The notes beneath the pieces were generated by a model that was given only the letters and a program-made list of their open reading frames with translations, searched no databases and was not told the origin of the DNA. A stretch of DNA of 64,000 nucleotides from Vibrio penaeicida (GTDB lineage: Bacteria > Pseudomonadota > Gammaproteobacteria > Enterobacterales > Vibrionaceae): the NCBI RefSeq assembly GCF_019977755.1, contig NZ_AP025144.1, positions 3,100,001 through 3,164,000 on the forward strand. Reading direction: 5' to 3'. Shown here piece by piece: positions 23,976 through 30,480 of this stretch (position 1 is its first letter; each line of letters opens with the position of its first letter). Made by a program: the position numbers and the translations under genes.

Positions 23976-24342
23976 GGGGCTGATTCAGGATTCGACGGGA
24001 ATACTGCAGTCTGAGGTGCATGCCGTGGGGCGGTTGGCCACGTAAAAAGCCGCAAAAAAATAGTCGCAAACGACGAAAACTACGCACTAGCAGCTTAATA
24101 ACCTGCTCAGAGCCTCTTTGCCCTAGCTTCCGCTTGTAAGACGGGGAATTACAAAGAGTCAAACCCAAACTAGCTAGCGTGGCTTCTCCCGCCTGAGAGG
24201 AAAAGCGCGAATTCTAATTCAGGATAGTCATTTACTAGCGTGTCGGTTCGCAGGTGGATGGTGAATTTAAAGATCGACTAAGCATGTAGTACCAATGATG
24301 AATGATTTTCGGACGCGGGTTCAACTCCCGCCAGCTCCACCA
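23976..24342 (+). ncRNA. ssrA: Transfer-messenger RNA (tmRNA, SsrA)
   Basis: The 5' end GGGGCUGAUUC pairs with the 3' end GCCAGCUCCACCA to form the tRNA-like acceptor. The T-arm GCGGGTTCAACTCCCGC is intact. The tag reading frame at 24066-24095 encodes ANDENYALAA followed by TAA TAA. The gene is complete. Its 3' end is the integration target of the accessory segment that follows: the last 12 bases plus 13 bases beyond are repeated at 26415-26439. Confidence 0.97.
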
Positions 24343-24355
24343 AACGTTTGGAAAG
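24331..24355 (+). repeat. Direct repeat 1 (attachment-site copy at the ssrA 3' end)
   Basis: A 25-bp sequence starting CCAGCTCCACCAAACG and ending TTTGGAAAG, identical to 26415-26439. It starts inside the acceptor stem of tmRNA, a common integrase target. The two copies bound the hipBA segment. Confidence 0.88.
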
Positions 24356-24386
24356 CCCACTAGCTCATAGAGTTAGTGGGCTTTTT
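24352..24386 (+). terminator. tmRNA terminator
   Basis: AAAGCCCACTA and TAGTGGGCTTT with a T-run (TTTTTGTATTT). Because it lies inside the repeat-bounded segment, it was probably supplied by the inserted DNA. Confidence 0.8.
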
Positions 24387-24428
24387 GTATTTGGTCTCTC
24401 AAGTATTTGAATATTGGTATCAATAAGA

Positions 24429-24446
24429 TATCCCTACTAAAGGATA
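24429..24446 (+). promoter_or_regulatory. HipB operator O1
   Basis: TATCC-CTACTAAA-GGATA fits the E. coli HipB operator TATCC-N8-GGATA exactly. It is the first of four sites with a 28-bp period. Confidence 0.88.
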
Positions 24447-24456
24447 TTGTCATGCG

Positions 24457-24474
24457 TATCCTCTAATGGGGATA
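24457..24474 (+). promoter_or_regulatory. HipB operator O2
   Basis: TATCC-TCTAATGG-GGATA, an exact match starting 28 bp after O1. Confidence 0.88.
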
Positions 24475-24484
24475 AAATAGGCTT

Positions 24485-24502
24485 TATCCTCTTATAGGGA
24501 TA
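24485..24502 (+). promoter_or_regulatory. HipB operator O3
   Basis: TATCC-TCTTATAG-GGATA, an exact match starting 28 bp after O2. Confidence 0.88.
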
Positions 24503-24512
24503 CACTTTCTTC

Positions 24513-24530
24513 TATCCTTACTAAAGGATA
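24513..24530 (+). promoter_or_regulatory. HipB operator O4
   Basis: TATCC-TTACTAAA-GGATA, an exact match starting 28 bp after O3. The inserted MITE begins at 24533, two bases beyond it. Confidence 0.88.
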
Positions 24531-24532
24531 TT

Positions 24533-24800
24533 TAGGGTCTGTTGACCTTTCGCGGTTAAATTTTGTTCGAGTTCTATGTATTTTAATCGCGGCGCAAGGT
24601 CTTTAGCTTAGTTATTCTAAGCAAATACCTTGCAACAAAGAGTAAAGCACATAGAAACGAACCCTTCGGGCAGCATTTGTGGCTCCTTTCTACTGCGTTA
24701 CCGCCTATTGATGTAGAGCGACTACACCGAATAAGCGCTGCCTTGTATAAAGAACCCACAAATTGCTGCAAAAATCAGCTCGAAAGGTCAACAGACCCTA
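24533..24800 (+). mobile_element. MITE-like element with 20-bp perfect terminal inverted repeats
   Basis: The left end TAGGGTCTGTTGACCTTTCG (24533-24552) and its exact reverse complement (24781-24800) bound 268 bp with no coding capacity. The outermost TA on both sides may be a target duplication. The interior holds a hairpin near 24595-24635 (GCAAGGTCTTTAGCTTAG with CTAAGCAAATACCTTGC). A 53-bp relative with both ends lies at 30604-30656. It sits between the HipB operators and hipB, pushing hipB about 310 bp from the last operator. Confidence 0.82.
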
Positions 24801-24843
24801 GACTCCCTCAAAATTCATCGCTCACTTATGAGGGCTGGAACGA

Positions 24844-25092
24844 ATGATATATAGCCCAAAGCAATTGGCAGACTTGATGCTCTTAATACGTCAAAAGAAC
24901 GGATGGACTCAATCAGAGTTAGCAAAAAGAGTAGGTATAAAACAAGCGACGATCTCGAACTTCGAGAACAACCCAAACAAAACAACACTTTCAACTTTCT
25001 TTAAACTTGCTCAAGCAATGGATCTAACATTCAGTATCCAAGAAAAAACCCAGGTCACTTCGTTAGATGAAAATGATGATGAGAGTTGGTAA
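24844..25092 (+). CDS. hipB: HipB antitoxin and transcriptional repressor
   Basis: An 82-residue XRE-type DNA-binding protein, very close to E. coli HipB (KNGWTQSELAKRVGIKQATI, then SNFENNPNKTTLSTFFKLAQAMDL). The helix-turn-helix is at about 20-45. The C-terminal tail ends in Trp (DDESW), the residue that in E. coli HipB inserts into HipA. It appears intact. Its TAA stop shares one base with the hipA ATG (TAATG). Confidence 0.95.
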   Translation: MIYSPKQLADLMLLIRQKNGWTQSELAKRVGIKQATISNFENNPNKTTLSTFFKLAQAMDLTFSIQEKTQVTSLDENDDESW

Positions 25093-26392
25093 TGCAAGAA
25101 CTAATCACATACATGAATGGTGAGCTTGTAGGCACTTTAAAGAAGCATAAGAATGGCGCTCACACTTTTCAATATGACAAGAGCTGGGTTACCAATGTAA
25201 ATACTCGTCCGTTGTCGTTGTCTTTAAAGCTTCAATTACCCCTATCACTTCCGATGCCGTTATAAATTATTTTGACAACCTCTTACCAGACAGCCCCCAA
25301 ATCAGAGATAGGATCGTTGCAAGGTATAAAACTCCATCCAAACAACCTTTCGATCTCCTTAAAGAAGTGGGTAAAGACAGTGTTGGTACGATTGCTTTAC
25401 TTCCTCCCGAACGCCCTTATAAAAAAGCCCCTCCCAGATACGACATATTAGATGATAAGAAATTAGAGGCGGTTCTTTCTGCATACCAGTCTGATATCCC
25501 ACTAGGGATGCTCGAAGAGGAGGAAGACTTTAGAATCTCAGTGGCAGGTGCTCAAGAGAAAACGGCGCTCTTATTCGTTGATGAACAATGGTGCATCCCC
25601 AAAGGAAACACGCCCACCACTCACATTATCAAACTGCCAATAGGCGAAATACAACAAGCTAACGCGACATTGGATCTCAAAGACAGTGTAGAAAACGAGT
25701 ATCTTTGCATTGAGCTAGCGAGAGCGATGGAATTCGCCGTTCCCAACATCAATATAATCAAAACAAACAACCTTAAAGCTTTAGCGGTAGAACGCTTTGA
25801 TAGACGCTGGACAAAAGACGGAGCAGGCTTGCTACGCTTGCCTCAGGAAGATATTTGCCAAGTATTTGGTATGCCATCATCCATTAAATACGAATCTCAA
25901 GGTGGTCCAGGAATCGTGCAGATCATGGAGTTATTAATGGGTTCAAGTAACGCTCTAGAAGATCGCTATAACTTCATGAGGTTCCAAGTGTTTCAATGGC
26001 TCATTGGTGCGACAGACGGACACGCAAAGAACTTCTCTATCTATATTGATAAAGGAGGAAGCTACCGACTCACGCCATTCTACGATATTTTGTCCGCCTA
26101 CCCATTACTGGGAGGAAAAGGACTCAATATCAGAAAGTTAAAGCTGGCGATGGGGTTGAAAGCAACGCAGGGTAAGAAGTATGAAATCAATAAAATCCTG
26201 CCTCGTCATTTTTTGGATACGGCTAAAGCTGTAAACTTTAGTCAGGAAGATATGCAAAAAATAATGAGTGAATTGAAAGACAAACTGCCTAACGCGATTG
26301 TTCAAGTAAAAAAAGAGCTACCAGAAGATTTTCCAATGCATGTTTCAAGCGCAATTTTCGACAATGCGATGAAGATAGCCGCAAGGATTTAG
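25092..26392 (+). pseudogene. hipA: HipA serine/threonine kinase toxin, frameshifted
   Basis: Full-length HipA similarity is present but split by a one-base deletion near 25236-25237, after the codons for PLSLSLKLQ. The first frame ends at TAA 25263-25265 (57 codons); the correct continuation runs in the next frame from 25238 (TPITSDAVINYFDNLLPDSP) to TAG at 26390. Key HipA parts survive: phosphorylated-Ser region GMPSSIKYES, catalytic GATDGHAKNFS and metal-binding FYDILSAYP. E. coli HipA inhibits GltX by phosphorylation. The break should inactivate the toxin unless frameshifting or internal initiation (ATG 25367) occurs; sequencing error cannot be excluded. Confidence 0.9.
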
Positions 26393-26414
26393 TGATGCAT
26401 CAATAAGGATCCCA

Positions 26415-26439
26415 CCAGCTCCACCAAACGTTTGGAAAG
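26415..26439 (+). repeat. Direct repeat 2 (distal attachment-site copy)
   Basis: A 25-bp exact copy of 24331-24355, the ssrA 3' end. It is followed by a hairpin AAGGGTC...GACCCTT with inner CTC-GCAA-GAG and a TTTTGGTTTT tail (26434-26469), which looks like an original tmRNA terminator. Confidence 0.87.
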
Positions 26440-26541: not shown

Positions 26542-26625
26542 TTATCTTTCTTTAAGTTTCTCGGCTTCGAAAGAGGTCGACTCTACTCGCGTCAATCTAT
26601 CTTCCAATAGTTCATAAATCGCCAT
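26542..26625 (-). pseudogene. Remnant of a gene following hsdR (nonsense-truncated)
   Basis: ATG at 26625 overlaps the hsdR stop (TAATG) and encodes 27 residues (AIYELLEDRLTRVESTSF, then EAEKLKER) before TAA. Reading through the stop gives DIQR. The pattern TSFEA-LKER-QD-QRLLR is what I remember from nuclease-like proteins encoded beside type I restriction loci, which would make TAA a mutated CAA. Later sequence has drifted out of frame. Family assignment is tentative. Confidence 0.4.
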
Positions 26626-27977
26626 TACTTCACCCCGCTCAACATATCAAAAATCACCCTCGCAAATTGCTTGGTTTTGTCTGGGTCAGACAGCAGTTGC
26701 ATCATTTGTTCCTGATGCGCCTCGTTGCTGTTCATAATTGCATCATCAATCGCACGTGGGAAGTCGCCCGACATGGCTTGTTCACGGGTATTGTTAGCAA
26801 TTTGGTTCATCACCGTTTCGTTCTCGGTCAGCTTGTCACGCACGGTGAAGGCATAGTTGATCATGTCTTTGTCGGTGAGATTATCGGTGACGAACACTTC
26901 GTTCAGTCGCTCGATGATGTGAGACAGGAATTCTTCTTTCTTATCCTTTGGCTTGGCGGTGCCAACATCGTTACTTGGCTGGAGTTTGTATTCAGGTGTG
27001 TTTTCCTTAAGCTGAATGTCCTGCTGGCGGATTTTTGATAAGCGATAGTGGCTCATGACCACGTTGCCCAGATCAAGCTCATCCTCTTCAATAACCTTCT
27101 CGCGCAGCATTGGGCGTAAGTGACGCGCAAACAGGCTCAGTTTCTCCAGCTCTATATCGTCGTAATCAATAATCTGCGACATAAACTCATAGAAGCGTAC
27201 AAAGCTGCCTAAGTCCTTCTTGAAGATCTCAAGACGGTCTTTCTCTTGCTTACACTCTTTAAAAGCGTTTTCCGCGTTGGCGATTAATACTGCATCGCCT
27301 GTTTTCTTGGTGCGTTCAAACACGTTCTTGGCGTGAAGGTACTCTTCTACCGCAGAGGTATAACGCTTACGCCAACGATCAATGGCTGGTTTGCAGATAT
27401 TGCTGATGGCTGCGTTTGATTTGTTCTTGGTGAAGAAGGCATCAACAAACTGTTCTACCTCCGACCAAAGGAAAATACCGCTGGAACGTAACTTCTCTGA
27501 GAGATCAAAAACCTTATCAGGGTCAGACACGTCCTCCAGCTCTGCCACTTGGTAATAAGGCTGGAAAGCATCAAGAATGTCCTGCGGGTCGTTGTAGAAG
27601 TCGAGCACAAAAGTGCCACATTCCGCTTTGCCCAAATAAGTACGATTGAGGCGTGAAAGCGTCTGTACGCACTCAACGCCCGCGAGCTTCTTATCCACAT
27701 ACATGGCGCAGAGTTTTGGTTGATCAAAGCCCGTTTGGAACTTGTTGGCCACCAGCATCACCTGATAGTCATCGCTATCAAATGCTTTGCGCATCTCTCG
27801 ACCTTTAAGATCTGGGTTCATGTTGTGCTCGGTGAACTTTTGATCCATAAACGCGGCGCTGTCAGGGTCGGCATCGTTAAACTCCACTTCGCCAGAGAAC
27901 GCGACCATCGCTCGAATACCAGCATAGCCGCTGTTATTTTTAGAAGAAGCAGAAACGTACTTATCAAATGCTAACTT
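26625..27977 (-). pseudogene. hsdR: Type I restriction enzyme HsdR, C-terminal fragment
   Basis: The 451 residues from KLAFDKYVSAS onward match the second helicase domain and C-terminal region of HsdR (ANKFQTGFDQPKLCAMYVDK, then VQTLSRLNRTY). The N-terminal nuclease and Walker A/DEAD-box domain are absent. The open frame continues upstream into the palindromic repeat (MLCAGTPC), which is not HsdR sequence. The restriction subunit is therefore non-functional. The end of the gene is intact (FDMLSGVK). Confidence 0.88.
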
Positions 27978-28069
27978 GCAAGGCGTGCCTGCGCATAGCA
28001 AAGGAGCATAGCTTGCCTATGTGACTGAGCGAGCACAGCCACAACGCAGTTATTGGTGAAAAAGACCAT
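27971..28069 (-). pseudogene. Residual 5' end of the deleted gene after hsdM (probably hsdS)
   Basis: ATG at 28069 overlaps the hsdM stop as TGATG, the usual coupling to the specificity gene. Only about seven codons (MVFFTNN) precede the palindromic repeat; the frame then runs through the repeat to TAG, 32 codons in all. No target-recognition domain remains, so methylation specificity cannot come from this locus. Confidence 0.5.
27976..28049. repeat. Imperfect palindromic repeat at the hsd deletion junction
   Basis: A 74-bp imperfect palindrome, starting TTGCAAGGCGTGCC and ending ACAACGCAG, with central hairpin CATAG-CTTGC-CTATG. The ends (CTGCGTT... and ...GCCTTGCA) resemble a dispersed palindromic repeat I remember from Vibrio and related genomes. 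It replaces all of hsdS and the first half of hsdR. Confidence 0.6.
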
Positions 28070-30480
28070 CAGGAGTGCACCTCTTGCAGTAGCTTCATAA
28101 TGTCGCCACTTACCGCATCCAAATCGGCATCAATTGCTTCCAGCGCACGCGGTGGTTGGTAAACATAGAAATGGCGGTTGAATGGAATTTCATACCCCAC
28201 CACGCCAATCTCATTGTCTTTGTCATCACGCTTATCCGCGTTGATCCACGCATCAGCAACGTGTGGCTGCACTTCACGCTTGAAGTAGCTTTCAATTAGG
28301 TTTGATGTTGTCACTGACGGGTCAAGTGGCACGTTCTCGTTATCACGCAGGTCGCCATCTTGTTGGAACTCAACAACCTTACCTTTGTAGCCAAAAGCAC
28401 CGTAAAGCGGTTGTGCGTCTTCTTTTAGCACTTTTTTGATCACAGGCTCGGCGTCTTGGTTCTTCCACGTTACCGCATCTATAAACTGTTTCTTCTGCTT
28501 GGCATCGAACTTGATGCTGGTGCTCTTGAGCGCACCTTTCAGTGTCAGTTCAAACTGATTGAAATCGTCGGATTGCTGGTGCTTTCCGCCAAGGTTAACG
28601 CCAACCGCAACTTGCAGGGCTTTCGCTGCATCCATCAAGGCTTTTTGGCTTAGCCACAGTTTGCTGTTCAGCACGTCTTTGATTTGCTTTTCTTTCAGCT
28701 CTGGGAAATCCGCTTTAATCAGCGCACGCACTTCGGCTTCTACTTCAATCAGTGTGCCATAACTGTTGTCATCCCATTCAGTGCCAAACTGCTCAAAGAC
28801 AGCCTGCATCACTGCGTTAAATGGTTTAGGTGCAAAGCGCAGTGATTCCACAGCAACATCTGTGATTTGCGCAGACAGACGCAGCGGGCGCTCGATGGTT
28901 AAGCGACGGTAGCCAAACTCGTGGGTGTCGAAAATTTTACTAGCGAAGGTTTTTGGTGTTTCCGCTTTCGGGTTCACGGCTTGACGACCACGGCTCGACT
29001 TTTGCTCGGTAGGTTTGTCTAGGGCACGAGCGTCAACCACTTCAAAGTCACCAAAGGTGCGAGTGATGGTTTTGATATCGTCATCACTCATCACGTTGCG
29101 CTTTGAACCGAGAGATTTACGCATTTTCCCGCATAGGTTGGAACCATCGATAAGCTGCACTTTGCCTTTGCGTTCTGGGTCTTTCTTGTTGGTCAGAACC
29201 CAAACATAGGTCGCAATGCCTGTGTTGTAGAACATGTCGGTTGGCAGCGCGACAATGGCTTCAAGCAGGTCAGCTTCTAAAATGTAGCGACGGATTTCGC
29301 TTTCACCGCTACCTGCGCCACCTGTGAACAGCGGCGAGCCGTTCAAGATGATGCCAATACGCCCACCATCGGTGACTGGGTTATCAACGCTCTTCTCTTT
29401 TAGCGGAGAGATGGGGCGCATTTTGTTGATAAGGTGCATCAAGAACAGTAGCGAGCCGTCAGAAACTCGCGGTAAGCCCGCACCAAAACGTCCATCAAAA
29501 CCGTCTTCAAACTCTTCCTTTATCTCTTTTTCGATCTTTTTCCAGTCGACGCCAAACGGCGGGTTAGACAGCATGTAGTCAAACTTGTCGGCTGGCAGTT
29601 GATCGTTAGATAAGGTGTTACCCAGTTTGATTCGGCTAACATCTTGCCCTTTGATCAGCATATCGGCCTTACAGATAGCGTAAGACTCTGGGTTTAGCTC
29701 CTGACCAAACGCACGCATCACCGCTTTAGGGTTGAGTTCGTGCACGTATTCCATGCCTGAAGAGAGGAAACCGCCAGTACCCGCGGTTGGGTCGTAGATG
29801 GTGCGAATTATGCCCTCTTTGGTGAGGGCTTCATCGTCTTCCATAAACACCAATGAGGTGGTCAGGCGCACGATGTCACGCGGGGTAAAGTGTTCACCTG
29901 CGGTTTCATTCGAACTTTCCGCAAAGCGGCGGATCAACTCTTCAAACACCAAGCCCATATCGTGGTTAGAAATGCTTTTGGGGCTAAGGTCGGTGGTGGC
30001 AAACTTCTTCACCACTTTGTAAAGCAGGTTGGCATCTTCCAGCAGACCAACAAACTCATCGAACTTGAAATGCTCGAAGATTTCACGCGCATCTTTGGAA
30101 AATGACTGTACATAATGGCGAAGATTGGCTTTTATATCGCTCTGCCCCATTTTGCCAAGGTTCATTGGCGAAGTATTGAAGAAAGAAAGGTTTTTGGAGC
30201 GATCTTTTTCATCATACGTTGCGCGTAACAACATCTTTTCACGTTGGTTTTCGTCAATAGGATCTTTGCCAGCGGAAACCATTGTTTTACTCAACGCATC
30301 AACCTTTGGTATTTCCGTAATTACCGATTCTTTACTTGGTTCAAGCACACACTCAAGACGACGAAGCAGGGTAAACGGTAGGATCACACGACCGTATTGA
30401 GATTGTTTGAAGTCACCGCGAAGCAAGTCAGCCACCGACCAGATAAAGGCAGCGGTTTGGGAGAAGTTGTTGTTGGTCAT
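28069..30480 (-). CDS. hsdM: Type I restriction-modification system methyltransferase subunit
   Basis: N6-adenine DNA methyltransferase of 803 residues, apparently complete. The N-terminal helical domain (about 1-150) is followed by motif [14 protein letters not shown] (about 230), catalytic SNPPFG (about 305) and a long C-terminal part (about 520-800) of the extended HsdM type. Without a specificity subunit it should not bind a defined site alone, unless an HsdS acts in trans. It reads straight into the deletion scar. Confidence 0.93.

Follow-up and report, generated by a model that had tools for sequence, protein, structure and literature searches.

The hipBA operon of Escherichia coli is controlled by operators for which PMC3376134 and PMC3920265 give the consensus TATCCN8GGATA. 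In strain K-12 four of these sites precede hipB, at -134/-106 and -67/-39 (steps of 28, 39 and 28 bp), and the sequence, read by eye, has a promoter-like pair (TTGACT, 16 bp, TAAAAC) around the third of them. Another described hipAB locus is that of Shewanella putrefaciens CN-32, carried on a composite genomic island that is integrated in a tRNA gene; for its promoter, PMC8978831 reports an about 2-fold repression by HipB in a reporter. Insertions of MITEs close to promoters have been described as well. At the mtrCDE operon of Neisseria, a Correia-type MITE lies just downstream of the promoter, and according to PMC10969869 the transcript carries the element and is cut by RNase III.

The locus presented here can be set beside all of these. 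It lies in a stretch of 64,000 nucleotides of Vibrio penaeicida DNA (the window), and its hipB is preceded by four sites that follow the E. coli consensus and are 28 bp apart, as within the K-12 pairs. The probable layout of the promoter is also that of K-12, in which -35 and -10 enclose an operator (by eye in K-12). Unlike in K-12, where 39 bp separate one pair from the other, the steps are of 28 bp throughout, an arrangement that many Vibrio relatives share, and while K-12 has a hipA annotated as whole and no MITE between operators and hipB, the window has a broken hipA and a MITE in that place. As in S. putrefaciens CN-32, the genes are found in a segment at an RNA gene (a tRNA gene there, ssrA here), but in the window this segment measures 2.1 kb between two ssrA-end repeats, no integrase was seen inside it and the toxin gene is broken. 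With the neisserial case it shares an insertion just after the (probable) promoter and an element that would be part of the transcript; mtrCDE is an unrelated operon, and RNase III cutting and IHF binding are established for the Correia element. Among the matches listed by literature searches on Vibrio MITEs, Vibrio hipBA and hipBA islands, ssrA or insertion sequences, the locus appeared in no title. We interpret it, with a probability of roughly 0.7, as a decaying hipBA relic at the 3' end of ssrA, with a MITE in the probable hipB leader and with operators and promoter kept together upstream of the insertion; that is, it is an ordinary relic, not a rewired switch. The features are, in order of position in the window:

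23976..24342, plus strand: ssrA, tmRNA (ARAGORN; Rfam RF00023, 252 bits)
24326..24355, plus strand: att-like direct repeat of 30 bp, copy 1, at the ssrA 3' end (97% identical to 26410-26439)
24349..24387, plus strand: terminator-like hairpin after ssrA (pattern scan; 18 pairs, then a T-rich tail)
24429..24446, no strand: HipB operator-like site 1 (exact TATCCN8GGATA)
24457..24474, no strand: HipB operator-like site 2 (exact TATCCN8GGATA)
24478..24506, plus strand: probable native promoter position, placed from relatives (-35 at 24478-24483, 17-bp spacer with site 3, -10 at 24501-24506)
24485..24502, no strand: HipB operator-like site 3 (exact), inside the promoter spacer by the geometry of relatives
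24513..24530, no strand: HipB operator-like site 4 (exact), over the probable transcription start as placed from the -10 position
24533..24800, no strand: MITE with TA at each end, in the probable hipB leader (inverted ends, copies, empty site)
24844..25092, plus strand: hipB, intact, 82 aa (open reading frame; HTH_3, PF01381; solved HipB chains, best E 1.9e-27)
25092..25265, plus strand: first open frame of hipA, N-terminal part (PF13657, E 6.3e-8)
25367..26392, plus strand: second open frame of hipA, C-terminal part, in another frame (PF07804, E 7.2e-54)
26410..26439, plus strand: repeat of 30 bp from the ssrA end, copy 2 (direct-repeat comparison)

The motif scan returned four exact copies of TATCC-N8-GGATA, starting at 24429, 24457, 24485 and 24513, always with a step of 28 bp. 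Base composition would predict about 0.07 exact sites per 64 kb, as against the four found within 102 bp and on one period. The complete genome (6.78 Mb) has nine exact sites, four of which belong to this array, and a single match to the reversed control pattern. Sites with up to two mismatches were no commoner than expected by chance (20 in the window versus a mean of 18.2 in 100 shuffles) and for this reason only exact, in-register sites have been used as evidence. A preliminary description of this DNA had pointed to the same four sites and period and had taken them for HipB operators. The scan bears out the first statement, while the identity of the operators is supported by the exact register of the sites and by the arrays found upstream of hipB in relatives. 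Judging from these sequence patterns, HipB probably binds all four.

For the comparison with relatives we used 71 loci coming from two hipB searches (29 and 42), from which 15 duplicates, whose final 120 upstream bp were also those of another locus, were removed, giving 56 distinct loci. This set includes three loci in which the match covers part of hipB only (L109, L111 and L107) and one with in-frame stops (L051); a match with 38% identity over 42 residues (L112) and the row of the window itself (L031) were left out of the counts, and 13 of the 43 hipB places of one of the searches fall outside the fetched set. When up to one mismatch was allowed and the 300 bp next to hipB were considered, at least two sites were counted in 54 of the 56 loci and none in L110; the remaining 55 are the site-bearing relatives referred to below. 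Neighbouring sites were spaced by exactly 28 bp in 119 of 139 cases over the 56 loci, and by 56 bp in another 6. The longest arrays that we noticed were those of L052 (seven sites with up to one mismatch, a 28-bp step occurring five times and a 41-bp step once) and L053 (five sites, all steps of 28). Operator-like sites precede hipB in Vibrio, Photobacterium, Shewanella, Psychromonas and several enterobacterial loci. One of the contigs (L099) is labelled Candidatus Nanosynbacter, and the region upstream of its hipB matches E. coli K-12 by eye; it is probably assembly contamination.

A scan of 223 genomes of the genus for pairs of sites with a 28-bp step, allowing up to one mismatch, found them in 37, and among the matches listed the reversed pattern, taken as control, scored 0. 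Seven of these 37 genomes lack a hipB match at E 1e-15, as could be expected if the pattern were a repeat unrelated to HipB. Such pairs without a hipB match at this threshold are found in G070, G083, G134, G213, G214 and G219, where they may correspond either to more distant HipB proteins or to further scars. The exact-site counts, the genome-wide scan, the expectation from base composition and this paired-site scan lead us to reject a chance array, and the taxonomic range over which exact, in-register sites stand before hipB makes an unrelated repeat extremely improbable too. Two genomes have a second operator-like pair away from hipB, at G122:C1:2778855-2778900 (about 3 kb from the hipB match) and at G181:C1:622758-622803 (about 1.1 kb from it), and HipB may control other genes there.

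To place the promoter, the 200 bp adjoining hipB were scanned in the 55 relatives for the sigma-70-like pair with the highest score, using literature base frequencies. The -35 started exactly 7 bases before an operator in 31 of them and within 2 bases of that distance in 36. Of these 36 pairs, 34 spanned the second operator counted from the gene. The other 19 relatives, of which 13 have a HipB identity below 80%, have their best pair outside this 2-bp tolerance. When the HipB identity is above 80% the best pair spans an operator in 17 relatives out of 23 and does not in 6. The typical pair in these close relatives is TGGACT or TAGACT, 17 bp, TATACT, and the 17 operator-spanning pairs score from 8.4 to 11.1 (9.2 in 11 of them). 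Since the best promoter spans an operator in most relatives, the promoter of the window would also lie upstream of the insertion, inside the array as in the relatives and in K-12, and transcription would start at about site 4. The sequence at this position, TAGGCT/TACACT, scores 5.1 and is weak by consensus, below the operator-spanning pairs of the relatives; the top-scoring pair in the part of the window scored here is located at 24447/24471, overlapping site 2 (6.8).

The insertion between site 4 and hipB is an element of 268 bp that starts 2 bases past the end of site 4 (24530) and stops 43 bp before hipB (24844). Its inverted ends of 31 nt are 84% complementary and both are flanked by TA, which we have counted as target duplication, leaving 266 bp of net insertion. 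Scoring 40 of the 79 candidates in the same genome gave at least 24 full-length copies, which are 86-100% identical to the window copy, fall into two size classes (267-268 and 280-282 bp) and have TA at both ends in 23 of the 24 cases, the exception having TG at one end. The window copy has 19 differences from the family consensus and its nearest copy is 97% identical. Across the genus, 149 of the 227 genomes contain matches to the element. The longest open reading frame wholly inside it codes for 62 aa (frames of at least 50 aa were considered). Being short, with inverted ends, a target duplication, many copies and no transposase of its own, the element is a MITE. This agrees with the preliminary description, which had placed a MITE of this length between array and gene with gaps of 2 and 43 bases, as the coordinates confirm. 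From a search for the termini in the same genome, one wide pair of 4.7 kb (L159) was inspected; it encloses two long open reading frames, neither of them transposase-like by eye, and no parent transposase was evident there.

It had also been suggested that related strains be compared for a version of the locus without the element, and one exists. V. penaeicida TUMSAT-NU1 (L109) has a single TA at the insertion point, with 95.5% identity over the 736 bp up to this point and 93% over the 176 bp after it. Once the net 266 bp are subtracted, site 4 of the window falls at -65, in agreement with the position of the proximal site in 19 of the 55 relatives (-64 to -66). The insertion was not met in these 55, among which the proximal site never starts more than 110 bp from hipB. 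A gap of 215 bp inside the array of L056 gave no significant match to the window MITE.

What the insertion does to the control of hipB is a different matter. According to the preliminary description, it cut the array off from the gene and may have provided hipB with a new, unregulated promoter. The first part holds for distance only, as the operators and the promoter position stay together as one unit upstream. The second would mean that hipB is made constitutively from a promoter inside the MITE, and there are precedents in the sigma-70-like promoters that other MITEs carry (review PMC10969869). The native core is weak in the window, and by our own matrix a pair internal to the element (24556/24579) scores above it, 6.4 versus 5.1. 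However, the consensus scan found no promoter-like site on either strand of the element, 241 of the 300 base shuffles reached or exceeded the score of 6.4, which is the best for the element plus the following 43 bp, and the native promoter position lies upstream. The element thus shows no promoter beyond chance, and we consider quite unlikely that it drives hipB.

Since the element is located downstream of the promoter position and of the probable start, repression of initiation should be untouched. The predicted leader RNA (24513-24870) folds with -125.8 kcal/mol, versus a shuffle mean of -81.8 (z -9.76). With a hairpin this stable, the insertion would more probably act through the transcript than through a new promoter. 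The start of hipB remains outside the big predicted hairpin. A stronger version of the same effect would be that the insertion silences hipB, with the long hairpin attenuating transcription, being cut or blocking translation, and that the locus is dead. The stability of the predicted fold and the RNase III cutting of the neisserial MITE just past the mtrCDE promoter (PMC10969869) are in line with it; moreover, hipA is already broken, so the loss of hipB would cost nothing, and hipB has 2 window-specific non-synonymous changes in 79 codons, the joint highest of nine rows (range 0 to 2). On the other hand, the consensus scan gave no terminator-like site in the element, hipB is open over its full length and all four operators are exact. 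We regard effective silencing as possible, if on balance rather unlikely.

The protein encoded by hipB aligns to solved HipB chains over the helix-turn-helix and shares with the best of them, without any change, the stretch GIKQATISNFENNP, presumably the site of the recognition helix. Its C-terminal residue is the tryptophan described in PMC3376134 as universally conserved. As to hipA, most of the listed relatives are single proteins of about 433 residues, whereas the gene of the window has a frameshift near 25,240, and its N- and C-terminal parts are found in different frames, a point that had gone unmentioned in the earlier work. There is no intact HipA kinase gene downstream of hipB, and no other HipA_C gene was found in the genome; with hipA frameshifted, the toxin-antitoxin pair would no longer be functional. 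An identical truncated hipA frame of 341 aa is present in six contigs among the matches listed (the largest of 4,300,323 bp, as against 4,134,604 bp for the contig of the window), which makes an error in one assembly unlikely, and we disfavour sequencing error as the cause of the break. Programmed frameshifting was considered, given a slippery-looking heptamer before the break, and was rejected because residues shared with relatives beyond the heptamer are still in the first frame.

A way to assess the age of the break is to look at the changes accumulated by the second part of hipA. This part has no stop over 341 codons and, in 334 codons, 14 synonymous and 9 non-synonymous changes specific to the window, a higher non-synonymous share than in L071 (16 synonymous and 5 not) or L041 (12 and 2). 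In this comparison L036 had no match to the second part, and 19 codons of the first part were comparable. The relaxation would therefore be at most mild, and from this the break is probably recent.

The location of the module gives further hints of its history. The 20-base core of the 30-bp repeat occurs, at up to one mismatch, only in these two places of the genome. No integrase was seen within the 2.1-kb segment between the repeats, which by its sequence looks like a small cassette at an ssrA attachment site. At gathering thresholds, Rfam detected the tmRNA alone between 23800 and 25200, and the hairpin at 24349-24387 would shield the array from ssrA read-through. On the minus strand (26625-30480), 458 aa of a type I restriction R subunit are encoded, with one domain match (PF22679); this piece comes directly after hsdM, adjoins the second ssrA-end repeat and looks truncated. 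What is left at ssrA in V. penaeicida TUMSAT-NU1 (L109) is 43 hipB codons and, after them, 66 bp of hipA, the rest of hipA being absent. After ssrA, G117 (L154) has two operators 28 bp apart in a genome without hipB at E 1e-15, apparently an orphan operator scar. Remnants at the same ssrA site in these two near relatives, V. penaeicida TUMSAT-NU1 and G117, suggest that this group is losing the hipBA module. A close relationship of V. penaeicida with V. nigripulchritudo is stated in PMC5854779.

These observations can be put together as follows for the relic that we favour. Cooperative binding of HipB dimers to the four sites would block access to a promoter that has site 3 between its -35 and -10, as judged from relatives and E. 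coli. The MITE would have inserted at the TA between site 4 and the start of hipB, downstream of promoter and probable start, so that autoregulation of initiation would be retained, and the transcript would become about 266 nt longer and fold into a stable hairpin that may lower hipB translation or be cut by RNase III, the latter being plausible by analogy with the neisserial element. With its toxin gene frameshifted, the module would have ceased to work as a toxin-antitoxin pair and be decaying. The intact hipB and the four exact operators kept while hipA is dead could also indicate that HipB has outlived the toxin as a stand-alone autorepressor, with the MITE hairpin now setting its output post-transcriptionally, a doubtful proposition in our view. 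If it were true, HipB would act, through the conserved and mostly continuous 28-bp arrays (2-7 sites in relatives), as a graded multi-site repressor, in contrast to the two-pair repressor of E. coli.

For the family as a whole, the comparative set reveals a HipB operator step of 28 bp that is strikingly constant. For the relic itself, the lesson is that a striking promoter-proximal insertion can spare promoter control, here because operators and promoter would form one unit upstream of it. The MITE with a broken toxin gene, the large internal deletion and the two remaining operators, all of them at one site, make up a natural series at ssrA that is useful for following the decay of a toxin-antitoxin module.
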